DNA from: Corynebacterium matruchotii
GTDB lineage: Bacteria; Actinomycetota; Actinomycetes; Mycobacteriales; Mycobacteriaceae
DNA: 64,000 nt
Direction: 5' to 3'
Assembly (NCBI RefSeq): GCF_011612265.2
Contig: NZ_CP050134.2
Location: 496,001-560,000 of the forward strand
The translations under genes and the position numbers were made by a program. This document shows, piece by piece, positions 43,653 through 58,961 of the stretch. The notes under the pieces are model-generated. The model was not told the origin of the DNA. It made no database searches and saw nothing but the letters and a program-made list of their open reading frames with translations. Within the stretch, counting starts at the first letter, position 1, and every line of letters begins with the position of its first letter.

Positions 43653-43768
43653 TAAGTGGCGAGGGAATGCCGGACAAGGCGGCGTCGTCAAGCGTCGTTC
43701 AATAATACATGTCCTTGCCGTGCGATATCCTATTGGGAATTGAAATTCATTGCGGTGAGGAGCAATCT

Positions 43769-46507
43769 ATGTGCGAGGCAGGGGTAGATCATGTTGTACA
43801 AATACTACGGGTATGCGGATTTAGTGTTATACAACATTACCCGAGGGCAGATCTTCTAGTTTTTGTTCGTGACCACCAACATTTTGATCTTGGGGGATTT
43901 ATCAAGGTTCAGGTGAAGAATAGGCCAAGTCTGATGGAGAATCCCTCCACCGATAATGGTCGGGTCGGTTGGTGGGTTCGTGATTTTGCTTATCATGATG
44001 ATCCTTTCCCACGGTTACTCGTGCTTTTCGACGAGAATTCCGAGGAAGCCTATTGGGTTCATGTTACGAAAGATAAGGTTCTGGGCACAGGGCAAGAGCA
44101 AAAAATATTTGTTCCCAGGGAAAATGTTATTAATAACGAGTCTGTTGATTCTCTGGTTGAAGTTGCCTTTGGTAAGCTGCCCCAGCCAGCAGAACTGCCT
44201 GGGGTACCTGATGCGGACCGGTTGCGATATGCATTAATCGCTCCCCAGTTGATTGTTCCACACCCTCACTTACCACTGCGCACTCTTTCGTCTGTTGAGG
44301 CCATTGCGCTTTTATCATTAGCGCAGATGCGGATGCTTAAGGGGACCATGGAATATAAAATTACTGGTGCTTTGTGCAGCCACCATGATGATCCCTCGTG
44401 GAGGTTGTATTCCGCATTATTCAAATGGATTGATAAAAGACGAACCGATGCTATTTTGAGTTTTCCATCGGCAAATGTGGAAGCCAATATTGCGGCAGCG
44501 GCAGGGGTAATAAAGGCAACGGTTCTGTTTGAGGAACACTTGCCGCAGCGTGCTTGTGAGGTCCTGAAGGATGCGTTGGCGGCGCGGGACGATTACAGTC
44601 CTGTTGATTTGGCATGGTTGCAAGTGCATTTAGCTCGGAACCTGATTGAAATCGGCGAATTTGATGAGGCATGGGACTTAGCATTAGAAGCATCACTGAT
44701 TGGGCGGCGGGAATATCAAGATCCCACAGCACGATATGTGGCTGGTGTAGCCATGGAGTTCGTGTTTCAACTGAATGATCTGACAGGGAGACAGGAAGCG
44801 GAGAACCTGTTTCGGACGATTATGAAATATTCCCCCGACTCATCGTCGTGGTTGAGAACCCAAATCTTGGCTGGTGGGCTTACGGATTTCAGCGAAAAGA
44901 ACTATCCACAATCGCGTGATGATGCCAAAATAATTCTTGGGAAGGAATGCGAGACTACTATCTCAAAGGCGCATTCTACGAGTCTAATTACGGGGTTTGC
45001 CGCGGACGCCAATGCTTGGCGGCGTGCTGCGGCAGCATTTGCATGCTATTTCCTGTTGTCTGCTGACAGCATAGATGAGCTGGTATATGCTCTGAATATT
45101 CTGCGGGTAGCTGGGGTTCAAGACGAGTTAGAACTTGCTACCTCCCGGTTCCTTCATTTTGGGCCTGCTGAACCACTCGCACAAATAATGAATGAATTAT
45201 CGCTAGAAGATGCCACGAAAAGTTCGTTACCATGTGACTTTGCCCTAGTCGGGAACTGCGTGGCACTCCTTGATACGTGCACTGTGGATAACCATGCTCT
45301 CTGGCTTCTAAAAGAACTCAAAAATCCCAGTAAAACATATGTTTTTGGAATCTCTCGTTGGTATGAGAACGAGATCATTCAAGTACTCGCAAAAATCTAT
45401 GGTGCCTGTTCCTCAGAAGTAATGGCCAAGATCCAGGATTATCTCATTACGATACCTGGCATCCAAGATTTGGAGCTTGCCGCATCCTATGCGGAGCTCA
45501 TCAAGTCCATCATCGAAGATGATCTCAACTGGGGTAAGGAATGGGATAACGAGAAACTACAGAAATTGGTAACACGTGGCAAAATTGATAATGAATTATT
45601 AAAAGGAACGATAGAACAGCTTCGGGCAGTTCATGATACCAATTACGACCGGCTTTTTGGAAAAATCCGGATTGGTGATCTCAATGCCTTAGCAAGTTGG
45701 CAAGACTTCGATCATTTACCAGACGGTATTGTCCAACGAGCTGTGCTTCATTTAGCAAACCTAGTTGATCACATCATCGCAACCGCAGCTTCTGGAACAC
45801 TTCCTGGATCATATTCCAGAAGCTATAGCCACCTTTCTATTTTGGTGCACCTCAATATTTCGCACCCTCACTGTGCGAATTGGCGGCCTTGCCTCAGGAT
45901 GCTCAATAATCGTGTTTCTTCAATAGATTTGGTTCCGGGGATAGAAACAATGATCGATGAGTATCAAAAAATCCCCGCAGATGTTGCACGTGATATGAGG
46001 GAACCTCTGATGGGGTTGATGGGGAAAAGTGATACGTTGAAGATCATCTATCCTGATAGGGATGCCGATGTTCGTGGTCCGGCGTCGGCATTATTAGGGT
46101 TGCTATTCCCCGAAGATGTTCCAATGACTCAAGTCGCCCAGATGCTTCGGGGAGACGCAAGTTTAGTGAAGGCCGCAGTAAAGATTCTAGCCCAACGCAA
46201 AGAAAAATTATCGTTATCTTTGTTCGCTAGGTTGAGTAAGCATGATAGCTTCGAGGTGCGGGAAGCAGTCGTATCCGCGCTGGTCACATGGGTTCTTGAG
46301 GACGTTCGCGCGGAAGAATCCTTTTCCCTGCTTACAGAGATCGTTGCAGATGCCAGTGTTTGTTTGATCAGCACCATATTGTCTCTGGTATCCCAACATC
46401 CCCGCTCTGATGCGGCCGAAAAACTACTAGGTTTAGTTGCGGAAAAGGACTACGCGGTGGTTCCCCGACAGCTAGAGATTATCAAAACAAAATGGGAGAG
46501 GGCGTGA
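43769..46507 (+). CDS. DUF4365-like nuclease domain plus helical repeats (912 aa), likely acquired
   Basis: N-terminal about 150 residues resemble DUF4365, a PD-(D/E)xK-like domain: CEAGVDHVVQIL, an acidic strand RADLLVFVRD and IKVQVKNRPS (the Q-x-K element), then PRLLVLFDENSEEAYWVHV. The middle (about 180-500) is TPR-like (RACEVLKDALAARDDY, EFDEAWDLALEASLIGRREY). The end (about 770-912) has HEAT-like helix pairs (GDASLVKAAVKILAQRKEKL, DSFEVREAVVSALVTWVL). ATG 43769 follows GGTGAGGAGC. G+C is about 45% by spot counts against about 60% next door. It resembles large defence-type proteins in architecture, but no partner is seen. It lies between a cutinase and a truncated regulator gene. Confidence 0.8.
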   Translation: MCEAGVDHVVQILRVCGFSVIQHYPRADLLVFVRDHQHFDLGGFIKVQVKNRPSLMENPSTDNGRVGWWVRDFAYHDDPFPRLLVLFDENSEEAYWVHVTKDKVLGTGQEQKIFVPRENVINNESVDSLVEVAFGKLPQPAELPGVPDADRLRYALIAPQLIVPHPHLPLRTLSSVEAIALLSLAQMRMLKGTMEYKITGALCSHHDDPSWRLYSALFKWIDKRRTDAILSFPSANVEANIAAAAGVIKATVLFEEHLPQRACEVLKDALAARDDYSPVDLAWLQVHLARNLIEIGEFDEAWDLALEASLIGRREYQDPTARYVAGVAMEFVFQLNDLTGRQEAENLFRTIMKYSPDSSSWLRTQILAGGLTDFSEKNYPQSRDDAKIILGKECETTISKAHSTSLITGFAADANAWRRAAAAFACYFLLSADSIDELVYALNILRVAGVQDELELATSRFLHFGPAEPLAQIMNELSLEDATKSSLPCDFALVGNCVALLDTCTVDNHALWLLKELKNPSKTYVFGISRWYENEIIQVLAKIYGACSSEVMAKIQDYLITIPGIQDLELAASYAELIKSIIEDDLNWGKEWDNEKLQKLVTRGKIDNELLKGTIEQLRAVHDTNYDRLFGKIRIGDLNALASWQDFDHLPDGIVQRAVLHLANLVDHIIATAASGTLPGSYSRSYSHLSILVHLNISHPHCANWRPCLRMLNNRVSSIDLVPGIETMIDEYQKIPADVARDMREPLMGLMGKSDTLKIIYPDRDADVRGPASALLGLLFPEDVPMTQVAQMLRGDASLVKAAVKILAQRKEKLSLSLFARLSKHDSFEVREAVVSALVTWVLEDVRAEESFSLLTEIVADASVCLISTILSLVSQHPRSDAAEKLLGLVAEKDYAVVPRQLEIIKTKWERA

Positions 46508-48080: not shown

Positions 48081-48938
48081 ATGAAAGTTCTCCCTATTAT
48101 TCTGCGTGTTGTCATTGCGGCGGTGCTCATGTTTGCCGCCTCGTTTTCCGGGATGCTGACGCAGTTCATCCCCGGTTACGAGAGCATTCTTGCCGGTACG
48201 GCAGTGGGGCGCAACACCACCGGCTTGCTGTTGGCATGCGGCGCAATGCTCATACAATTCGCCTGCGCCACCGCCGTCGCCTACGTGGGGGTGCGACTTT
48301 TGACCCGCTACCTGGATCATCAGCCGCCTACCATGCTGAAACTACGCCCCACAAAAACCGGCATGCTTTGGTTTGTCGCCATGATCGGGGTGGCGATGGT
48401 CATATTGCTCATTGCCGGCGGGGTCACCATATTATTAGGCACCACCGGTGAGCCCCTCGCCCAACACGGCGACCAGTGGTGGGTCACCCTGATCGCTGTG
48501 TTAGGCATGGCCTTCCTGCTGCAAGGCATCCCCGAAGAACTCGTGTGGCGTGGCTGGCTACTATCCTCACTGGGGGCAAAAACAACCATGCGCTGGTCTG
48601 TGGGCCTGAGCGTGATCGTGTTCGGCACCCTTCACCTCACGTCGAACGGCGGGCAAAGCAACGCCATCGAGCACGTCATCTACCTGGTCATGCCGCTTGG
48701 GTTCGCCTACGCTGCTGCCATGGCCAGGCTCGCCGCCGACTCCACCTGGGCCGCCATTGGGGTGCACGGTGGATATCACACCGCCATGCTGCTTGCCAAC
48801 GTACTCCCCATCAATAACTCACCAACCCTATGGGTGCTGATCGGCGCGCTGTGGTTTGCTGTCGGCCTTGCTATTCGAGCCTGGCGACGCCCGTTCGCAC
48901 CAGCGCAATCTGATCCCCAAGAATCTGCGCCTGCGTGA
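48081..48938 (+). CDS. CPBP family intramembrane metalloprotease (285 aa)
   Basis: Seven to eight membrane helices. The three CPBP/CAAX-protease motifs are present: EELVWRGW (E-E-x-x-x-R), FGTLHLTSN (F-x-x-x-H) and GVHGGYHTAML (H-x-x-x-B). It probably processes membrane peptides or prenylated-like substrates, and in Gram-positives is often linked to bacteriocin self-immunity. It is divergent from the orphan kinase and overlaps the next gene's end by 68 bp on the opposite strand. Confidence 0.92.
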   Translation: MKVLPIILRVVIAAVLMFAASFSGMLTQFIPGYESILAGTAVGRNTTGLLLACGAMLIQFACATAVAYVGVRLLTRYLDHQPPTMLKLRPTKTGMLWFVAMIGVAMVILLIAGGVTILLGTTGEPLAQHGDQWWVTLIAVLGMAFLLQGIPEELVWRGWLLSSLGAKTTMRWSVGLSVIVFGTLHLTSNGGQSNAIEHVIYLVMPLGFAYAAAMARLAADSTWAAIGVHGGYHTAMLLANVLPINNSPTLWVLIGALWFAVGLAIRAWRRPFAPAQSDPQESAPA

Positions 48939-50167: not shown

Positions 50168-51079
50168 ATGGCCCTATATGGCTTATTGACTGTCGCAGCG
50201 TTGGCACTTATGGGATATGCGGTGACACCCCGGGGGCGGTCAGTTTTCTTCCGGAGATTCGCCGGGGGGACGCAATTGCAAATGGCATACCTTATGGTGT
50301 TTACCATTATCATCATCGCCCTCGTTGCCCTGATAGTCATCCATCATGCCACTCTCGCGGAAGAAGTCGCCGTTTTTGCGGCTTTAGCAGCGTGTTTTGC
50401 CCTCATTGTCGCGCTATTGCGGAACCGGATTGCCTCCCCGCCGAAAACTGCCACCCCCTACACCGTTCTCACCGTCGGCGCCCACCCCGACGATCTAGAA
50501 ATCGCCTGCGGGGGTACTCTTGCTCGCCTCGCCGATGAGGGGCACAAAATCCACGCTATCGTCATGAGTGACGGATGCGCAGGGGGCGATAATAGCGTGC
50601 GCCCCACCGAAGCCCGGAACGGCGCCGCTACCATGGGGCTGGAAAAAATCGAGATTCATTCCCTCACCGACACCCGGTTAGAGGACCACAACATGGAAAT
50701 GGTGGACATTATTGAAGCAAAGATCAACGAACTCAAGCCCGACCTGATCCTGACTCACTCCAGTCACGATCAACACCAAGACCACAAGGCCGTGCACTTC
50801 GCCGTGCTGCGGGCCGCCCGTAAACAACCGTCAATTTTGTGTTTTGAATCCCCCTCCGTGACCAGCGAATTCAACCCACAACTCTTCATTGACATTACTA
50901 ACTACATTGACATTAAAATCCATGCTGTCCAAGACCACCGCGACCAGGCCGGTAAACGCTACCTCCGGTGGGATCGGCTCAAAGGCATGGCCAATTTCCG
51001 CGGCGCCCAGGGGAAACTGGAACTCGCCGAAGGATTCGAAATCGTCCGTCTCAAAGACTCCATCGCAGGATTGAAATAA
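50168..51079 (+). CDS. Membrane-anchored PIG-L family deacetylase (303 aa)
   Basis: Three membrane helices fill residues 1-85 (ALYGLLTVAALALMGYAV, YLMVFTIIIIALVALIVI, EEVAVFAALAACFALIVALL). The PIG-L/LmbE domain follows: zinc motif AHPDD at 105-109, then HSSHDQHQDHKAVHFAV with the third ligand His. The family removes acetyl groups from N-acetylglucosamine-containing lipids or sugars. AAAGG precedes ATG 50168. It leads an operon with an ATP-grasp enzyme (5-bp gap), a GT2 synthase and a secreted protein, so a role in making a deacetylated surface glycan is inferred. Confidence 0.9.
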   Translation: MALYGLLTVAALALMGYAVTPRGRSVFFRRFAGGTQLQMAYLMVFTIIIIALVALIVIHHATLAEEVAVFAALAACFALIVALLRNRIASPPKTATPYTVLTVGAHPDDLEIACGGTLARLADEGHKIHAIVMSDGCAGGDNSVRPTEARNGAATMGLEKIEIHSLTDTRLEDHNMEMVDIIEAKINELKPDLILTHSSHDQHQDHKAVHFAVLRAARKQPSILCFESPSVTSEFNPQLFIDITNYIDIKIHAVQDHRDQAGKRYLRWDRLKGMANFRGAQGKLELAEGFEIVRLKDSIAGLK

Positions 51080-51083
51080 CCAT

Positions 51084-51953
51084 ATGAACATTCTCATCAC
51101 CGGTGTCGGCGGTCCCGCCGGCCGTGCTCTCGTCAGCCAACTTGCCACCACCAGCCATAATGTTGTGGGCGTGGACATGCAGGAAGTTGCGCTCGCCGAC
51201 ATTGATTCTTTCGAACTGGTGCCCGCCGCCAACGATCCCGACATGATTAACCAACTTGCCGCACTGGTCGACCATTACGACGTGGATCTACTCATCCCCA
51301 CCGTTGCCGACGAGCTTCCCATGGTGGCGAAAGCATCCCAACTGGGTCAGCTGAGCAACGCCCAGGTTGTCATTTCCCCCCTAGAGGCGGTGGAAAAATG
51401 CTTCGATAAGCTGCTGACCATGCGGGCGCTGCGGGAAGCCGGTGTTTCGGTGCCTCCCTTCGGTCTCCCCAGCGATTTCACCTCCTCATATGATGTGTTC
51501 GAACAGCTCGGCGGTGCCATTATCACTAAACCGCGGGTGGCCCGTGGCGGTCGGGGCTTCGCCATTCACACCAGCCCCGAAAAATTCCAGCTCGAATCGT
51601 ACGACGACTCCTACATCATTCAGGCATTCGCCCCCGGGGAAGAATTCGCCCCCATGGTGTACATCGGCGACCAACCCGGCAACGAAACCGTTTCCATCGT
51701 TGCGAAAACTCAGGAAGAATTCTGCGAAACCGCCGCCCCCATCGTCCGCTCCGTCGACACCGCTAACGCCCTTGACGTGGCACTACTCGCCGTCAAGGCC
51801 TGCCACGCCCTGAAGTTGAAGGGGCCCATTGATTTGGATGTGCGTCGCATGGCTGACGGTCACCCGGTTGTGTTAGAAGTGAACGCCCGATTTGGTGCCA
51901 ATAGCTCCCTTGCACCAGAATTATTGGCAGAAGTTCTTAAGTCAGCCGCATAA
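51084..51953 (+). CDS. ATP-grasp enzyme, carbamoyl-phosphate-synthase-large-like (289 aa)
   Basis: The N-terminal pre-ATP-grasp domain opens MNILITGVGGPAGRALV. DLLIPTVADELPMVA and CFDKLLTMRALREAGV follow, typical of CarB-type ATP-grasp ligases. The ATP-grasp fold includes IITKPRVARGGRGFAIH (the P-loop-like lysine and glycine loop) and metal-binding IDLDVRRM...LEVNARFGANSS. Such enzymes in glycan clusters ligate amino acids or other acids to sugars; here the substrate is unknown. It sits between PIG-L and the GT2 synthase. Confidence 0.9.
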   Translation: MNILITGVGGPAGRALVSQLATTSHNVVGVDMQEVALADIDSFELVPAANDPDMINQLAALVDHYDVDLLIPTVADELPMVAKASQLGQLSNAQVVISPLEAVEKCFDKLLTMRALREAGVSVPPFGLPSDFTSSYDVFEQLGGAIITKPRVARGGRGFAIHTSPEKFQLESYDDSYIIQAFAPGEEFAPMVYIGDQPGNETVSIVAKTQEEFCETAAPIVRSVDTANALDVALLAVKACHALKLKGPIDLDVRRMADGHPVVLEVNARFGANSSLAPELLAEVLKSAA

Positions 51954-51971
51954 AAAAATAAGGAAACACCC

Positions 51972-53246
51972 ATGTCTGCGCTAGCAGTCGTTGTTCTCAT
52001 TGGGCTCAGCACACTCATTTTTTGGGTGGGCATGATTAAGCTCCTTTTCATACCCCTGTCCCTCTATTTTGAGATCCGCCAAACCTGGCGCAACCACCGA
52101 AAAGTAAAAACTGCCCTGGACGATGAGCCCCTCGTGAGCATCATCGTCCCCGGCTATAACGAGGAAAAAGTGCTGGGTGCCTGCATCAGCTCTATTCTGG
52201 CCAGCAGCTACCAGCACTTCGAACTCATCATGGTCAATGATGGGTCCACCGACAGCACCGCCAAGGTGATGCGGGACCTCGCCGAGGCCAACCCCTATAC
52301 CGTGATCTTTGTCGACCAACAAAACTCCGGCAAAGGGGCTGCGCTGAACACCGGCACCGCCTATGCCAATGGTGAGTTCATCATGTACGTGGATTCCGAT
52401 GGAGTTTTCGGCAAAGACACCATTCGGCAGATGCTCAAGGCCTTTGATAGCCCCAAAGTGGGGGCAGTCAGTGGTGATGATCGACCGGTGAATCTCGACC
52501 GGGTACAAACCACCCTGCTTGCGCTCATTTCTCATGTGGGCACTGGGTTTATCCGCCGGGCGCTCGCCGTGGTGAATTGCCTGCCCGTGGTCTCCGGGAA
52601 TAACGGCCTGTTCCGGCTCAAGGCGCTCAAGGCCACCGGGCCGCTACGTACTGACACGCTGGGGGAAGACCTGGAGCTGACCTGGCGAATTCACCGCGCC
52701 GGCTATCGGGTGAACTTTGCCCCACAGGCCGTCGTGTATGCCGAATCACCGTCCACATTGAAAGGGCTATGGCGGCAGCGGGTGCGGTGGGCACGGGGGA
52801 TGCTGCAAGCCACCCGGATTCATAAGAATATGATTTGCAATCCCCATTATGGGGCATTCGGAGCATATTTGCTGTTTAACCTGCTCAGCATGATTATTGT
52901 ACCGGTCGCGCAGATCTTTGTGCTGCTGGGTATGCCTATCGTTATTATTACCGACCCCGACGCGCTTCCCACAACTGCGTTAGGATGGGTGGGGTTCCTC
53001 GGGTTGGCACTAGCGCTTGTTATTTTGATATATTCAATCGCACTAAACCGGGCCTGGGGAGATTTACGCCACATATGGGTCTTTCCCCTTTGGCCCATAT
53101 ACTCCACACTGGTTGGTTTCACGCTTGGTTGGGCCATTATCTTGGAAGTGAAGGGGGCGGAAAAGAATTGGAACAAACTGGAGCGTACCGGCACCATTAG
53201 TGTGAGTGGCCTCAGTGTCGATAAGCAAGAAGCGAGTCCAGCATGA
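51972..53246 (+). CDS. Family 2 processive glycosyltransferase, PgaC/IcaA-like (424 aa)
   Basis: An N-terminal membrane helix (about 5-30) precedes the GT-A domain (about 50-290): VSIIVPGYNEEKVLGAC, VNDGSTDST, D-x-D in YVDSDGVF (141-143), GEDLELTWR (catalytic Asp) and QRVRW (269-273). Three or four further helices form the C-terminal channel (about 287-395). This Q-x-x-R-W architecture polymerises and exports beta-linked sugars such as poly-N-acetylglucosamine or hyaluronan. AAGGAAAC precedes ATG 51972. The next gene overlaps its stop by ATGA. Together with PIG-L, a PNAG-like deacetylated polymer is plausible. Confidence 0.93.
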   Translation: MSALAVVVLIGLSTLIFWVGMIKLLFIPLSLYFEIRQTWRNHRKVKTALDDEPLVSIIVPGYNEEKVLGACISSILASSYQHFELIMVNDGSTDSTAKVMRDLAEANPYTVIFVDQQNSGKGAALNTGTAYANGEFIMYVDSDGVFGKDTIRQMLKAFDSPKVGAVSGDDRPVNLDRVQTTLLALISHVGTGFIRRALAVVNCLPVVSGNNGLFRLKALKATGPLRTDTLGEDLELTWRIHRAGYRVNFAPQAVVYAESPSTLKGLWRQRVRWARGMLQATRIHKNMICNPHYGAFGAYLLFNLLSMIIVPVAQIFVLLGMPIVIITDPDALPTTALGWVGFLGLALALVILIYSIALNRAWGDLRHIWVFPLWPIYSTLVGFTLGWAIILEVKGAEKNWNKLERTGTISVSGLSVDKQEASPA

Positions 53247-54352
53247 AACGCAGAACATTTTTAAAACTTTCATCCTTGTCATCTATCCTGTCGTTCCTAC
53301 CGTTTGGGTCTTCCTCCTGCGGAAAGGGTTACGAGCTGCGGAAACTCAAAAATTCACCGCTGCCGGAAGAGCGCAGCGTGAACTTTGGTTTCGAGGATGT
53401 TTCCAATCCTCATTACGACTGGAAGGCCATGTCGCAGCGGCTTTCCAACGTCAATGCCACCGCCGCCTCCATCTGTGTGGGGCGGATCGAATGGGTGTGT
53501 TTCGACTGGGAGGGGCACCCAGATACTCAGGCCTCTATTAATGGGGCCGACTGGGTGCAGGATGCCATTGATGCGCTCAGGCCGCTCACTATTAACCTCA
53601 CCATTGATACTTTAGTACCCAATACGATCCATAAAAACCCCGAACTAGCTGGGGTTGATCCCGGGGGAGAGCGTTCCGATAAGTTCGCCTCGGTGACCGC
53701 TATCCGCGATGGGGCGGTGGGGGATGGGATTGTGGAGCTGGCGAAAACCATTTCGCACCGCTACAACCCCGACAGCATTTCCCTGACCGAGCTCATGTTT
53801 GACAATTACACGTTTGGGGAGGATGACCTGGCTTCGTATAAGAAGTTCTCCGGGGCATCCGACTGGCCGCGGAAAGACGGTGAGATCAATACTCGGGATC
53901 CTAAGCTGGGGGAATGGCGTTCCGAGGCGTTGCAGCACCTACTCGACCGCATTAAAGGGGTCATCCCCAGCAATGTCGCCCTGGACATGGATGTGCGGGC
54001 TCCCTGGAACGATCCGGGGGCGGATCGGGCTATGTCCGGCCACGATTATGACTTGCTGCTTACCGAGGCCAGCCGCATTGCCGTGTGGAACTATAACGGC
54101 ATGGAGCCCAGCGTGCAGCCAGATTATTCCGAGAAGCTAGCGGAGAGCTTTAACCGACGGTTTGGGGATAACCGTTACGTGCTGTCGACGGGCCTGTGGG
54201 CGGAGGATGAGGCCAACACTATCTCCGCCGATGATATGGCCCTTAACCTGCGGTATTCCGCCAAGGGTGGTGCATCGGCGGTGTCGGTCACCCCGGCCTC
54301 GCGGATGAGCGACGAGCATTGGAAGATGCTGGAGTCTGCCTGGAAGGGCTGA
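53243..54352 (+). CDS. Tat-type exported protein of the polysaccharide operon (369 aa)
   Basis: The N-terminus MKRRTFLKLS is a strong twin-arginine signal (R-R-x-F-L-K), followed by a hydrophobic core to Cys26 (GSSSC). The lipobox is weak because a Ser stands at -3. The mature region begins VNFGFEDVSNPHYDWKAM and has repeated aromatic/acidic segments (RIEWVCFDWEG, SISLTELMFDN, ALDMDVRAPW, AVWNYNG, YVLSTGLWAED), reminiscent of a TIM-barrel glycosidase like the PgaB C-terminal domain. That likeness is structural guesswork. It is translationally coupled to the GT2 gene and ends the operon. Confidence 0.75.
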   Translation: MKRRTFLKLSSLSSILSFLPFGSSSCGKGYELRKLKNSPLPEERSVNFGFEDVSNPHYDWKAMSQRLSNVNATAASICVGRIEWVCFDWEGHPDTQASINGADWVQDAIDALRPLTINLTIDTLVPNTIHKNPELAGVDPGGERSDKFASVTAIRDGAVGDGIVELAKTISHRYNPDSISLTELMFDNYTFGEDDLASYKKFSGASDWPRKDGEINTRDPKLGEWRSEALQHLLDRIKGVIPSNVALDMDVRAPWNDPGADRAMSGHDYDLLLTEASRIAVWNYNGMEPSVQPDYSEKLAESFNRRFGDNRYVLSTGLWAEDEANTISADDMALNLRYSAKGGASAVSVTPASRMSDEHWKMLESAWKG

Positions 54353-54382
54353 TAATAGCCTGGCGGCAAACTTCGTAGAATG

Positions 54383-54413
54383 GCCGGTGTGGCAGTACCA
54401 CCGGCTGTTTTTT
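54383..54413 (+). terminator. Terminator of the polysaccharide operon
   Basis: GCCGGTG (54383-54389) pairs with CACCGGC (54399-54405), followed by TGTTTTTT. Confidence 0.85.
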
Positions 54414-54753
54414 ATCGCCTATCGACGGATTTCCACCCCATAAGAGGGTAATTTGGCGAAAAATTAACATGATAATTGCCCACAACTATAGTGAAAAGGG
54501 GCCAAATTCTTGCCAAGAGATGTCTGAACTAAATCGTCTGATCTTAAGCAAATCCCGAAAAAGTCCGATGTGATTATGGTGAATAATGTCCGATTGGTTG
54601 GTTCGGGATTAATTTGTTTTGCCCCGGATAAGTCCATAAGGGGGTGGGTAATTCTGTGAGATACCACAAAAAACCGGTCGTAGTTGTGTGGGTGGGGTGG
54701 GTGACTTATTACAATCGGAACCATTCGGGTCCGCAAAGTATTGAAGGAATAAC
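54414..54753 (+). promoter_or_regulatory. Intergenic region with promoter for the Ycf46 operon
   Basis: No supported gene. The region is AT-rich in its first half and carries the G-run GTGGGTGGGGTGGGTG at about 54689-54704, which could form a G-quadruplex on the plus strand. GAAGGAATAAC just before ATG 54754 is the ribosome-binding site of the operon's first gene. Confidence 0.4.
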
Positions 54754-56517
54754 ATGCCAGAGTACATTAACCTCAACCCGGTTATCCGTGAGATCAGCGA
54801 CGTGCAGAATAATATTCTTCTGCTCAACGGCAAAATGGACACCATGGGTGCGCAGGTTGGTGCGGTCACCCAAGATCTCAACACCACCCGTCAAAAGCTG
54901 CAAGAACTAGCGGAGGCTTTCGAAAAATTCTCGCGGCAGGCCGAACGTATCGCCGTCGTGCAGCGCGCCGAAACCCAGCTCGGCAATCTCAAAAGCGAAC
55001 TCGACCGGGTTTATGGGCACTACGCGCTCGTTCGCCGCACCAGCGTGGGCGTACTCCAGGCCTTCGACGTGGGAAACGTCACCAATGATGTGGTGGCGCA
55101 GGTGTCTGAAGAGCTCATGATCCAAAGCCCTAGATATTGGCTGGCGCCTGCGCTTGTGGGGTTGGCCGCCTGGTCCCGGGACGACAAGGCGATCTGCGAA
55201 AAGTCCGTGCAAGAGGCCTTTACCCGCGATGCGGCAAAAACCTCTCTTTTCTTTGCGCTCATCTTACGACGCGTCAACCGCCACGATGAGGCCTACACCT
55301 GGCTCAAGCACTACCTTATGAACTGTGATGCCACCAAGCTCACCCGCGAATTCGCCGTCATCCTTGAGGCCACCGCCCGCGGCGCTTTTGGAACCCAGGC
55401 GGAACAACTGCTCACTAACCAGCTGGGGGAGTGGGACGCCGAACTGCGTCAAAACGCCCAGCTGCGGACAGCCCAAGTGACGGCATGGGTGGAAGAAATC
55501 GCCAGCAATAGGGAACAGCTTGTCGTCGACGACTACGAGAATCTGCGCAAGCTCAGCCCCGACTTTGATCGCATGCGATCACTGCTGGAATCCGCCACCG
55601 CCCTGGGGGTGACCGCGAAAAAATACGAAGAAATCCGCGACCGGCTCGATGCGCCCGTCGGCAAGATCGAAGACCTGCTCGACGACCTGTTGGAGAAACT
55701 CGTCACAGAATATGATGCGGAAGAACTGCCGCTGCGTCGCAAAGCTGCCTATGCCGAAGCCGTCATTGAATCCAACGGCGACTTGGCGCAGGCGCAGGTC
55801 AAGACCGACAAATACGTGCGGGCGCTAGCGAACACTGTCGACGCCGTAAGCCTGCAAACCCAAGCCGCCATTACCCCCGAACGATTGGGTGTTTCCATCA
55901 GCACCCAACGCACCGCCATCGGCAACGGCCTCGACAACGTGCGCGCCGCTATCGACGAATACACCAGCCGCTACCGGCGGGATTTCCTCCCCGCCGCCAC
56001 CATCATCCTAGATGGCACCCACTCCGGCTACGCCTCCCAATTCGGGTTCGTCGAATTCCGGTGCGCCACCAACGAAGATGAGCAAGCCGTCCGCCAGCGG
56101 CTCGGCGAATACTGGGAAACCCTCTTCACGCCGCACATCAACCAGGCAACCTTCCAACAGTCGGACATGATTATGCCGATCATGGTCGGCGTCATCACCT
56201 CTGTGGCGTTCCTCCTCGGCATGAAACTTCTCGGCCTGTTCATGGTGGTGCTGGTAGTCATTGCCGTGGCGTTTTATATCCACCGGAAGAAAACCCTGGC
56301 GGAACGCAATGTTGCCGAATTGCATGTGGCGAAAGAGCAGGCCATCCAAATATCGAATAACGTTATTACGGAAGCCCGCGCGGAATTCACCGACCTCATG
56401 CTGGAATTCGAAGACCGGGACGCCGAGCAGGCGGAACTCACCCGGGTGTTCGCCACCTGGCCATCCCGTACCACCAATGCTCTTCACTCTTCCACGACCC
56501 ATAATGAGGCGCGTTAA
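54754..56517 (+). CDS. Coiled-coil protein with C-terminal membrane hairpin (587 aa)
   Basis: Residues about 5-80 form a long heptad coil (IREISDVQNNILLLNGKMDTMG...QKLQELAEAFEKFSRQAERI). A helical domain of about 380 residues follows. Two closely spaced hydrophobic segments at about 475-510 (IMPIMVGVITSVAFLLGM, LGLFMVVLVVIAVAFYI) anchor it, and a further coiled coil ends the protein. Nothing resembles a known enzyme. It is the first gene of a four-gene operon (gaps of 1-2 bp) ending in a Ycf46-like AAA+ ATPase and may be the remodelled substrate or membrane platform. Confidence 0.85.
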   Translation: MPEYINLNPVIREISDVQNNILLLNGKMDTMGAQVGAVTQDLNTTRQKLQELAEAFEKFSRQAERIAVVQRAETQLGNLKSELDRVYGHYALVRRTSVGVLQAFDVGNVTNDVVAQVSEELMIQSPRYWLAPALVGLAAWSRDDKAICEKSVQEAFTRDAAKTSLFFALILRRVNRHDEAYTWLKHYLMNCDATKLTREFAVILEATARGAFGTQAEQLLTNQLGEWDAELRQNAQLRTAQVTAWVEEIASNREQLVVDDYENLRKLSPDFDRMRSLLESATALGVTAKKYEEIRDRLDAPVGKIEDLLDDLLEKLVTEYDAEELPLRRKAAYAEAVIESNGDLAQAQVKTDKYVRALANTVDAVSLQTQAAITPERLGVSISTQRTAIGNGLDNVRAAIDEYTSRYRRDFLPAATIILDGTHSGYASQFGFVEFRCATNEDEQAVRQRLGEYWETLFTPHINQATFQQSDMIMPIMVGVITSVAFLLGMKLLGLFMVVLVVIAVAFYIHRKKTLAERNVAELHVAKEQAIQISNNVITEARAEFTDLMLEFEDRDAEQAELTRVFATWPSRTTNALHSSTTHNEAR

Positions 56518-56518
56518 C

Positions 56519-56893
56519 ATGACCCAACCACCAGAATCCCACCTGCCCGAACAGTCGAACCAACCCCCGGCGAGAATCAACCCATACGCAGCTCCGCCGG
56601 CACCAATGCCGCAGGCCGGGCCGCCGGCAACCCAACAACCCGCCCAAACACCAGGCCAAGTCCTGCCCACAATCCGCCGGGAGCGGCGCCGACCCCGATT
56701 CACCACACCCCCACCACCCGAAAACCAACGACCCGGCGAAACCACCGTCCTCGACCGCATGAGCCTGCTCGGCGAACTTCACGACGACAACTCTCAACCA
56801 GCCTTTGGTCGCAACCGTAATATCGCCGGCAGTCTCCCCGACTGGTCACCCCAACCGCCAGGGGAAATCCTCATCAATCGGAGGCGGCCCTAA
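56519..56893 (+). CDS. Proline-rich disordered protein (124 aa)
   Basis: Over a quarter Pro, with Arg, Gln and Asn: PPAPMPQAGPPATQQPAQ and IRRERRRPRFTTPPPPENQ, ending LINRRRP. It contains one short possible helix (TVLDRMSLLGELHDD) that could be an interaction motif. There is no signal or membrane segment. It begins one base after the upstream stop and is followed after 2 bp by the 170-residue gene, so it is in the same operon. Probably a flexible adaptor; that is inference. Confidence 0.75.
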   Translation: MTQPPESHLPEQSNQPPARINPYAAPPAPMPQAGPPATQQPAQTPGQVLPTIRRERRRPRFTTPPPPENQRPGETTVLDRMSLLGELHDDNSQPAFGRNRNIAGSLPDWSPQPPGEILINRRRP

Positions 56894-56895
56894 CC

Positions 56896-57408
56896 ATGGC
56901 GAACGCGTACGAAACCTGGGCCCGGGCCCTCCGCAGCTGGGCCACCGACCCCACCGTCACCCTCGACGGTCTCCCACCCATCACCGCGGGATCCTTCAAC
57001 CCCACCGTGCACCGCCGCCTGCTCAAACACATCGAACGGGCCCTAAGCATTGCCGACACCCGCTGGTCCGAAACCCTTACCAACCTCCCCGCCACTGCCG
57101 ACTACCACGAATTCGAACGCTGGTGGCTCACCACTCGAAACAACCTGGCCCGCCGCATGCACCTCTGCAACCACCCCGGTCTCCCCGACGAGATACGGTC
57201 AACCCTGCTGAGCGACGCCCAAACCCGCATCGGCAATTGGCAACATCACGTCGAAAGCATCCTCCGCCGCAGCTCCGTCGCTGGGGAACTCCCCACCGCC
57301 ACCGAACAGCGCATCTACGACCTCGTCCGCAGCACCCCACTCACCGCTGTTCTCGACCCCACCTACGGCACCGCGACCCGCCTCACCCACGCACTCGAAC
57401 AATCATAA
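56896..57408 (+). CDS. Helical hypothetical protein of the Ycf46 operon (170 aa)
   Basis: A small Trp/Arg-rich helical protein starting MANAYETWARALRSWATDPT. Segments RRLLKHIERALSIADTRW, HEFERWWLTTRNNLARRM and TRIGNWQHHVESILRR predict four or five amphipathic helices, forming a bundle. There is no enzymatic motif. It lies 2 bp after the Pro-rich gene and 2 bp before the AAA+ gene. Its consistent cotranscription suggests a partner of the ATPase. I do not recognise the family. Confidence 0.75.
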   Translation: MANAYETWARALRSWATDPTVTLDGLPPITAGSFNPTVHRRLLKHIERALSIADTRWSETLTNLPATADYHEFERWWLTTRNNLARRMHLCNHPGLPDEIRSTLLSDAQTRIGNWQHHVESILRRSSVAGELPTATEQRIYDLVRSTPLTAVLDPTYGTATRLTHALEQS

Positions 57409-57410
57409 TC

Positions 57411-58961
57411 ATGCCCAACTATCTCGAAACCACCGAAATCATCACCCGCTATCTCAAAGCCCGCGTCCCCCTCATCGTCGTGAAATCCACCGAGCCGGTC
57501 CGGGTCTTCAGTATCCTCCGCACCATCAGCACCAATATTCCCTCCCTCCCCTTCTTCTACTACTCTGCTGCCGACGGCCTCCGGGAACTCGCCTCCAACC
57601 AGCTCGTCCTCGAAGACCAATCCCTCGCCGCCGCCCTCGACCAGGCAAAAACCATGTTCAAAGCCCGGCGGAACGTGAACTTCATCTTCACCGAAATCGA
57701 CCACCTCGACTCCGACACCCCCACCGCCCGACACTTCTGCCAAATGGTGCGCATCGCCGAAGAATACCAAGGCGCAATCATCCTCCTCGCCGACAAACCC
57801 GTCTGGTCCGGCCTCGCCCGGCTCGGCATGTCCGTCACCCTCGACCTCCCCACCACTGAAGAAATATTCGAACTGGTGTCCGGCATGATGAAGGGGCATT
57901 CCACCGCCATCCCCGTCGAATGGGCGGAATCCGACATGCGGGCCGCCGCCGAAATCCTCACCGGCATCACCGAAGCCGAAGTCGTCAACGTCCTAGCCAC
58001 CATGCTTGTCAAAGGCGCAATCCGTGCCGAAGACCTCGCCGAACTCTCCAGATTCAAAGACTCCATCTTTGGCGAACTCACCGGCATCGAACGCATCCGG
58101 CTCGACGACAACTACCACGTGGGCGGACTCGACAACCTCAACGCCTGGTTGAAAAAACGCAAAGCCCTCATGAAAACCGACCTCTCCGGCACCAGACTCC
58201 ACCCACCCAAAGGCATCCTCCTGTGCGGCGTCCCCGGCTGCGGTAAATCCCTCTCCGCAAAAAACATCGCCGTCCAATGGGAACTCCCACTCTACCGGCT
58301 CGACATGGGCGCCATCCTGGGCATGTACGTTGGCGAATCCGAACAAAACCTCCGCGAAGCCCTCGAAACCGCCGAACGCATGGCACCCTGCGTGCTCTGG
58401 ATCGATGAAATCGAAAAAGGCCTCGCTACCGGCTCCGGTGACAGCTCCGTCACGAAACGCCTCATCGGCCAATTCCTCTTCTGGCTCCAAGAATCCCAAG
58501 CCAAAGTCTTCATCGTCGCCACCGCCAACGACGTCTCCACCCTCCCACCAGAACTACTTCGCAAAGGCCGCTTCGACGAAATCTTCTTCGTCGACCTCCC
58601 CACCGAAACCGAACGCACCGACATCATCGACCTATGCTTCTGGAAATACACCAACCACGCCATCCCCAGCCACCTCGTTGCGGAACTCGCCGAAGTCTCC
58701 GAAGGATTCGCCGGCTCCGACATTGACGCCGTAGTCCACGACATTGGTTCGGAAATGCTCTTCAACAACACCACCGAACTGCCCCCATCCGACTATATTC
58801 GCAGCCAATTCCGCAACGTTGTTCCCTTCAGCCAAACCAACCCGGAAGAACTCGCCGCCATCCGCGATTGGGGTCGCCACCGGGCGGTACCCGCCGGCCG
58901 CACCATCGCCGACTCGCCCGACAACAACTCCGTCTTCGCCGGCCGCACCATCGTCCTCTAA
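57411..58961 (+). CDS. Ycf46-like AAA+ ATPase (516 aa)
   Basis: The N-terminal half is the degenerate AAA-like domain of Ycf46 proteins (RARVPLIVVKS-type strand at about 15-25, FIFTEIDHLDSDTPTARHF and AIILLADKPVW). The active AAA module follows: GGLDNLNAWLKKRK (about 238), Walker A GVPGCGKS (273-280), Walker B VLWIDEIEKG (328-337), sensor 1 IVATANDVS and Arg finger LLRKGRFDE (383-390). No protease or DNA-binding domain is attached. Ycf46 is widespread in cyanobacteria with poorly known function. Here it closes an operon with a coiled-coil membrane protein, a Pro-rich protein and a helical protein. Confidence 0.92.
   Translation: MPNYLETTEIITRYLKARVPLIVVKSTEPVRVFSILRTISTNIPSLPFFYYSAADGLRELASNQLVLEDQSLAAALDQAKTMFKARRNVNFIFTEIDHLDSDTPTARHFCQMVRIAEEYQGAIILLADKPVWSGLARLGMSVTLDLPTTEEIFELVSGMMKGHSTAIPVEWAESDMRAAAEILTGITEAEVVNVLATMLVKGAIRAEDLAELSRFKDSIFGELTGIERIRLDDNYHVGGLDNLNAWLKKRKALMKTDLSGTRLHPPKGILLCGVPGCGKSLSAKNIAVQWELPLYRLDMGAILGMYVGESEQNLREALETAERMAPCVLWIDEIEKGLATGSGDSSVTKRLIGQFLFWLQESQAKVFIVATANDVSTLPPELLRKGRFDEIFFVDLPTETERTDIIDLCFWKYTNHAIPSHLVAELAEVSEGFAGSDIDAVVHDIGSEMLFNNTTELPPSDYIRSQFRNVVPFSQTNPEELAAIRDWGRHRAVPAGRTIADSPDNNSVFAGRTIVL

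Follow-up and report, generated by a model that had tools for sequence, protein, structure and literature searches.

A five-gene cassette around a Ycf46-like AAA+ ATPase, present in reduced form in Corynebacterium matruchotii and possibly a mobile conflict system

The closest operon logic among described systems is that of the MoxR-vWA ternary and GTPase-centric conflict systems (Kaur et al. 2020, PMC7159879), which combine a conserved NTPase core with exchangeable effectors, including caspase-like and FtsK domains. Here, we describe four genes, g1 to g4, that lie within a 64,000-nucleotide stretch of the Corynebacterium matruchotii chromosome (contig NZ_CP050134.2, positions 496,001 to 560,000; hereafter the window) and end with the gene for a Ycf46-like AAA+ ATPase. 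The vWA, MoxR, GAP1 and DO-GTPase families that define the earlier systems are not reported for g1-g4: Pfam finds no vWA family, the AAA domain of g4 matches PF00004, and neither DO-GTPase nor GAP1 is reported from Pfam or NCBIfam. Pfam, NCBIfam, PADLOC 2.0 and PHROGs contain no match to a described system, and no description was found in the literature searched. Since g1-g3 have no accepted match in Pfam or NCBIfam, and PADLOC 2.0 gave weak matches and nothing stronger, the statement of an initial, sequence-only reading that it knew of no described actinobacterial system with this composition is supported. The cassette is apparently undescribed, and may be kin to NTPase-cored mobile conflict operons.

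In the window, all four frames are open and follow each other head to tail on the forward strand, with gaps of only 1, 2 and 2 bases, as had been noted from the sequence. The genes encode a 587-aa protein read as an open frame (g1, 54754..56517), a 124-aa protein with 27 prolines (g2, 56519..56893), a helical protein of 170 aa (g3, 56896..57408) and the 516-aa ATPase (g4, 57411..58961). Their spacing suggests that they may be transcribed as one unit; promoter- and terminator-like matches are near or below shuffle level.

To obtain related loci, we scanned GTDB contigs with an alignment of g1, which gave 55 public loci in which g1 is therefore present by construction. All are actinobacterial records, except for one metagenome-assembled genome labelled Spirochaetia (L021). 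A g4 homologue (at least 150 bits, on the same strand and downstream of g1) is found in 48 of the 55 loci and in 48 of the 49 that can be assessed, one of them (L033) counted from a cut piece of 180 bits; L030 is one of the 7 misses, and the other 6 are loci in which the sequence stops 162-944 bases past g1. For g3 the numbers are 52/55 and 52/53, with L030 and two cut loci as the misses. Thus, homologues of g4 and g3 recur after g1 in nearly every assessable locus, so the arrangement is not due to chance. The reverse searches agree. When 396 genomes of the phylum were searched, g4 matched strongly in two (889 and 729 bits), which are also the two with strong g1, and the other nine g4 matches under E 1e-60 score 238-319 bits. 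Besides the two strong ones there are three weak g1 matches, of which those of 269 and 75 bits have no g4, g3 or g0 (the fifth gene, see below) in their surroundings; the third, of 20 bits, was inspected within 1.5 kb. Likewise, a search with g4 gave 69 viral contigs, and g1 and g0 are present within the flanks examined in only 2 of them, those with the two highest g4 scores (810 and 773 bits, with the next at 371). The genes therefore travel together in related genomes, and the lack of linkage that would have refuted the sequence-only reading was not observed.

Clustering of the flanking open reading frames revealed that the natural unit has five genes, so that the linkage proposed earlier for g1-g4 stands, but not the composition of four. 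The additional small protein, g0, is encoded directly upstream of g1 and reaches at least 100 bits with its profile in 53 of the 55 loci; L030 has a 45-bit fragment, and no g0 was found in L055. With g1 and neither g3 nor g4, L030 is probably a remnant. The g0 protein has no accepted Pfam family and contains invariant Cys, His, Asp and Glu positions, with one Cys, two His, one Glu and one Asp invariant across phyla. Its structure model is compact and alpha/beta (predicted local distance difference test score of 84.3), and has no match in the PDB. A search for g0 gave no match in the window, nor in the whole C. matruchotii genome at E<=1, indicating that the window holds a reduced form of the cassette. 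The intergenic stretch at 54353..54753 (+), which is the position of g0 in most relatives, has frames full of stops. Of the four Corynebacterium genomes with g1, two (G601 and G725) have g0 at the locus, while G597 and the C. matruchotii genome do not. g0 is missing from two other g1-g4 loci as well (L088 and L055), and at L098 g1, g3 and g4 are seen with no g0 above 30 bits.

The distribution of the cassette is patchy, with g1 present in only 4 of 242 Corynebacterium genomes and 2 of 151 genomes of the family. The sequence-only reading had regarded the system as actinobacterial, a scope that proved too narrow: tblastn with g1 gave matches in Comamonas, Komagataeibacter (two plasmids), Fusobacterium and the Streptococcus satellite phage Javan368. 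The order is g0-g1-g2-g3-g4 on a 643-kb plasmid of Comamonas antarctica (L100) and on a plasmid of Komagataeibacter nataicola (L101), and g1-g2-g3-g4-g0 in Javan368 (L099) and in a 2.1-Mb record of Fusobacterium vincentii that is filed as a plasmid (L102). Against the actinobacterial profiles, these four loci score 622-656 bits for g4, 352-406 for g1, 38-47 for g3 and 80-98 for g0. Two IMG/VR contigs bring the number of distant cassettes with all five genes to six: L103, in which the cassette is followed by genes that read, by eye, as serine recombinases, and L106, where g1 is open over 589 codons and g2, g3, g4 and g0 lie alongside. On the Komagataeibacter plasmids, insertion sequence and integrase genes are located near the cassette. 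g0-g1-g2-g3-g4 is thus a mobile five-gene cassette that rides plasmids and whose linkage spans Actinomycetota, Proteobacteria, Fusobacteria and a Streptococcus phage satellite, keeping four gene families without an accepted family (in Pfam and NCBIfam for g1-g3, in Pfam for g0) beside a special AAA+ subfamily. A protein search from Javan368 gave at least 3019 relatives, and the named ones among the best 120 of 3019 are from Streptococcus, Blautia and Ruminococcus. Since the g1 relatives named from Blautia are, among the matches listed, in a cluster representing 1000 contigs, the function could matter widely.

The assignment of g4 as a Ycf46-like AAA+ ATPase with an intact motor, made from the sequence, is borne out. 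The protein scores 109.4 bits against Pfam AAA (PF00004; cut-off 21.2) and has Walker A (GVPGCGKS, residues 273-280; 58227..58250), pore loop 1 (GMYVGESE, residues 304-311; 58320..58343), Walker B (VLWIDE, residues 328-333; 58392..58409), a sensor (VATAN, residues 369-373) and an arginine-finger box (RKGRFD, residues 384-389; 58560..58577), all on the forward strand. Most residues of these motifs are invariant across 28 homologues (alignment A2), as is the pore-loop aromatic Y306, and g4 aligns with these sequences over its full length, including the N-terminal part of approximately 230 residues. Together, the Walker motifs, sensor, arginine finger and N-terminal part place g4 in the Ycf46-like family. 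One full-length relative, P0075, carries the explicit if automatic UniRef name ycf46, and the names of two more begin alike; g4 also aligns full length with the 568-aa PHROGs family phrog_8638, of unknown function. Ycf46 family members are plastid or cyanobacterial proteins and many uncharacterised bacterial ones, among which g4 forms a separate high-scoring subfamily, with at least 691 bits (profile A2) in 47 uncut public loci, whereas no other match in the phylum exceeds 319 bits. Unlike other Ycf46-like ATPases, this subfamily is tied to g1, g3 and, mostly, g0. Pseudomonas and Mycobacterium phages also encode Ycf46-like ATPases (records H12-H30), with approximately 30% identity to the satellite g4.

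Several better-known ATPases were considered for g4 and rejected. Its best PADLOC match is IetA (104 bits, in the AAA part), but the NCBIfam IetA model gives 78.5 bits against a cut-off of 510. The operon also differs from IetAS in having other partners and no serine protease, which was absent from Pfam scans of g1-g3 and 13 further window genes; the sole protease-like gene among those 13 is of the CAAX type (Rce1-like, 48081-48938). Proteasome-activating AAA ATPases (ARC, Mpa and PAN) have a C-terminal HbYX tail motif. This motif is not present in g4, which ends in GRTIVL in the window and mostly in or near RR[IV][VI] in relatives, and the scores are far below the cut-offs (TIGR03689, 61.5 versus 504.75; TIGR01242, 97.1 versus 500). 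FtsH was dismissed because g4 scores 87.7 against a cut-off of 600 (TIGR01241) and has no M41 peptidase domain in the Pfam scan.

g1 consists of an N-terminal coiled coil, a predicted TPR-like alpha-solenoid, a C-terminal membrane segment and a long helix. Kyte-Doolittle windows of 19 residues above 1.6 start exclusively within residues 470-495, and the structure model has helices at 470-489 and 491-556; hydropathy and model helices thus point to a probable transmembrane hairpin at residues ~470-513 (56161..56292, +). No TPR family was found in the Pfam scan of g1. In PHROGs, window g1 and g3 have no match, and satellite g1 has one weak match (21 bits) of unknown function. Divergent g1-like proteins of 352 and 155 bits are present without g0, g3 and g4 in L176 (7897-) and L177 (8025-), in the latter just before an open reading frame that reads, by eye, as a Ser/Thr kinase. 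The g1 core appears, judging from such sequences, to have a wider family that is independent of g4. g2 has a conserved C-terminal LPxWxPxPPGE motif, which in the window reads LPDWSPQPPGE (56834..56866, +). In the public loci, it is found in strict form in 46/55, in relaxed form in 4/55 and not found in 5/55, two of which are cut by a contig end. In the distant cassettes L099-L102, each g2 has, read by eye, a W-containing tail with RR near its end.

A short terminal peptide is shared between the proteins of the cassette. RR[IV][VI] or a close form ends g4 in nearly all loci and also most g3. A fixed pattern applied to the last 16 residues finds it in 45/48 g4, 37/47 g3, 1/55 g1 and 1/431 of the remaining genes predicted in these loci, a class into which g2 and core genes that are too small to be labelled also fall; in alignment A2, 22/28 g4 have the tail versus 1.8% of shuffled tails. 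With longer frames read by eye, the tag is present at the N-terminus in most of 12 EccC-like proteins (see below) and in many, though not all, g0. The fixed pattern gives N-terminal counts of 13/47 for g0, 0/13 for EccC-like proteins and 6/431 for others, the first two being too low because the gene caller used shortens starts. In three distant cassettes, a similar tail is also present on g1 (NRKIKI, RRILSNS and RRVMVNS). In the window, g4 has a local form of the tail (GRTIVL; 58941..58958, +), and g3 is without the C-terminal tail of most relatives. We infer that these RR-hydrophobic peptides may be docking tags for one common site.

Additional genes accompany the cassette in a lineage-specific manner. 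Within 32 Streptomyces, Micromonospora and Allorhizocola loci (L034-L065), 27 have a caspase-like (C14) gene and 29 a CHAT gene; a 30th CHAT match, in L031, has only 28 bits. Pfam checks of representative loci confirm C14 in L036, L049 and L053 and CHAT in L042, L048, L049 and L055. These genes are upstream in most Streptomyces and in Micromonospora, and downstream of g4 on the opposite strand in L048, L050, L064, L065 and L042. CHAT genes are infrequent across Streptomyces as a whole (131 matches in 61 genomes, approximately 1 per 4 Mb), and of five CHAT-caspase pairs within 3 kb of each other, picked by eye, three are beside g1, g3 and g4. In a single locus (L031), a TIR-domain gene lies directly before g0 (31.4 bits, cut-off 24.7). 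An FtsK/SpoIIIE-type, EccC-like ATPase is encoded in 13 of the remaining 23 loci (L011-L033), with 12 strong matches and one (L011) that is weak and on the opposite strand. Because the modules follow lineage, the independence of these associations is limited.

The relatives of this optional upstream ATPase are the EccC/EssC ATPases of type VII secretion. The best solved relatives of its family profile are 4nh0 (8e-28), deposited as cell division FtsK/SpoIIIE and which we take to be an actinobacterial EccC, YukB (2e-25) and EccC5 (1.5e-23 and 4e-23), with chains named DNA translocase beginning at 5e-7. The ATPase is outside the cassette core, and none was found in the window. A protein of approximately 180 aa with a coiled-coil look lies between the EccC-like gene and g0 in L012, L014, L017, L019, L021, L028 and others; it has a hydrophobic C-terminus in L019/L020 and no accepted Pfam family in the three that were scanned. 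Elsewhere, the C. matruchotii genome has two FtsK/EccC-type ATPase genes (G000:C1:394309-394923 and 2186995-2187603), whose frames of 1343 and 1313 aa suggest, by length, that they may be type VII EccC.

What does the cassette do? Of the possibilities raised by the sequence-only reading, i.e., membrane remodelling, stress or conflict, we favour the last: at a probability of about 50%, the cassette is a mobile system for conflict, probably directed against phages, whose AAA+ motor would act by remodelling a complex of g1 anchored in the membrane, and the window has a reduced copy of it. This is suggested by carriage on a satellite phage and on plasmids, by rarity, and by CHAT, caspase and TIR neighbours in some lineages, all of them outside the window. 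Antiviral cargo of P4-like satellites is documented (PMC9122126). In such a system, g1 would be a membrane-anchored scaffold, with its cytosolic coiled coil and TPR-like solenoid gathering g2, g3 and g0; the two or three small proteins that are encoded beside g1 and g4 in nearly all loci would be adaptors, and the terminal RR-hydrophobic peptides would dock at one common site. A g4 hexamer, whose pore loop retains the aromatic residue typical of AAA+ motors that thread their substrates, would pull on g1 or an adaptor and thereby switch the complex between a held and a released state. We infer that g1 may be what g4 works on. The output, an anti-phage or other conflict response, could be passed on via lineage-specific modules where present (CHAT/caspase proteases in Streptomyces and Micromonospora, the EccC-like ATPase in some others). 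In C. matruchotii, where g0 is missing and the 64-kb window has no such module, the core may work unaided at the membrane.

Several observations weigh against this proposal. CHAT and caspase genes are confined to Streptomyces, Micromonospora and Allorhizocola loci (the 28-bit match in L031 aside), so that their counts are inflated by shared ancestry, and two of the five CHAT-caspase pairs, both from Streptomyces (L096 and L097), are without a cassette. At E<=1e-3, the window and the distant cassettes L099-L103 and L106 gave no match to CHAT, caspase, TIR or the EccC-like ATPase. In addition, the divergent g1-like proteins without g4 in L176 and L177 mean that g1 need not be a g4 substrate, and the absence of g0 means that the window copy could be impaired. 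Msp1/ATAD1-type AAA+ proteins extract or refold membrane proteins, and a motor with an aromatic pore loop linked to a membrane protein would also suit a quality-control or stress module without a conflict role, in which g4 extracts or refolds membrane proteins with g1 as its membrane adaptor. The lack of effector-like neighbours in the window and the six distant cassettes fits this as well. However, a housekeeping module should not be so rare, and neither its carriage on plasmids and a satellite phage nor its association with CHAT, caspase and TIR genes in some lineages would be expected, making this explanation unlikely in our view.

Two further explanations appear more doubtful still. The cassette could assist a machine for type VII-like secretion or membrane transport in which the EccC-like ATPase is the pump, given that the profile of this family matches 4nh0, YukB and EccC5 far above DNA translocases and that a WXG100 gene is located 68 bases after g4 in L016. 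Yet the EccC-like gene is present in only 13 of the 55 loci and was found neither in the window nor in the six distant cassettes, and on this evidence, which covers the EccC-like ATPase among type VII membrane components, we consider this role improbable. It is similarly improbable that the window copy is a decaying remnant that has lost g0 and in which the rest is drifting. The lack of g0 from the genome and the missing tail on g3 would agree with decay, but g1-g4 are all open and have kept the motor motifs, the g2 motif and the tight spacing, and g0 is missing from L088, L055 and L098 too. By comparison, the conflict system that we prefer can be extended, tentatively and with clearly less confidence than the proposal itself, to a new class of immune system that ranges from Streptococcus satellites to Streptomyces. 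A tag-held membrane AAA+ unfoldase complex would be unlocked by its motor upon sensing infection and would employ exchangeable executioners in some lineages (caspase/CHAT, TIR or an EccC-like pump), while the corynebacterial form would have shed g0 and act alone at the membrane. If a defence role were true, the core would join a classical AAA+ unfoldase with a membrane protein, and some lineages would add caspase-like proteases, which would connect protein unfolding with programmed death in bacteria in a directly testable way.

The remaining observations concern the surroundings of the cassette. Directly upstream, window positions 50168-54352 encode a PIG-L deacetylase, an ATP-grasp protein, a family 2 glycosyltransferase and a 369-aa protein without a family, and are likely a cell-surface sugar cluster. 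Further upstream (43709-46507) is a gene for a 932-aa protein that has a DUF4365 match of 44 bits and a weak HEAT match, and no match in PADLOC at E<=1e-5. Finally, a locus that overlaps the start of the window and ends 54 kb before the operon (L091, G000:C1:484001-496500) has clustered genes for HmaB (940 bits), HmaC (838 bits) and two IetA-like AAA ATPases (156 and 100 bits); these Hma-type and IetA-like genes are a defence island on the same chromosome as the operon.

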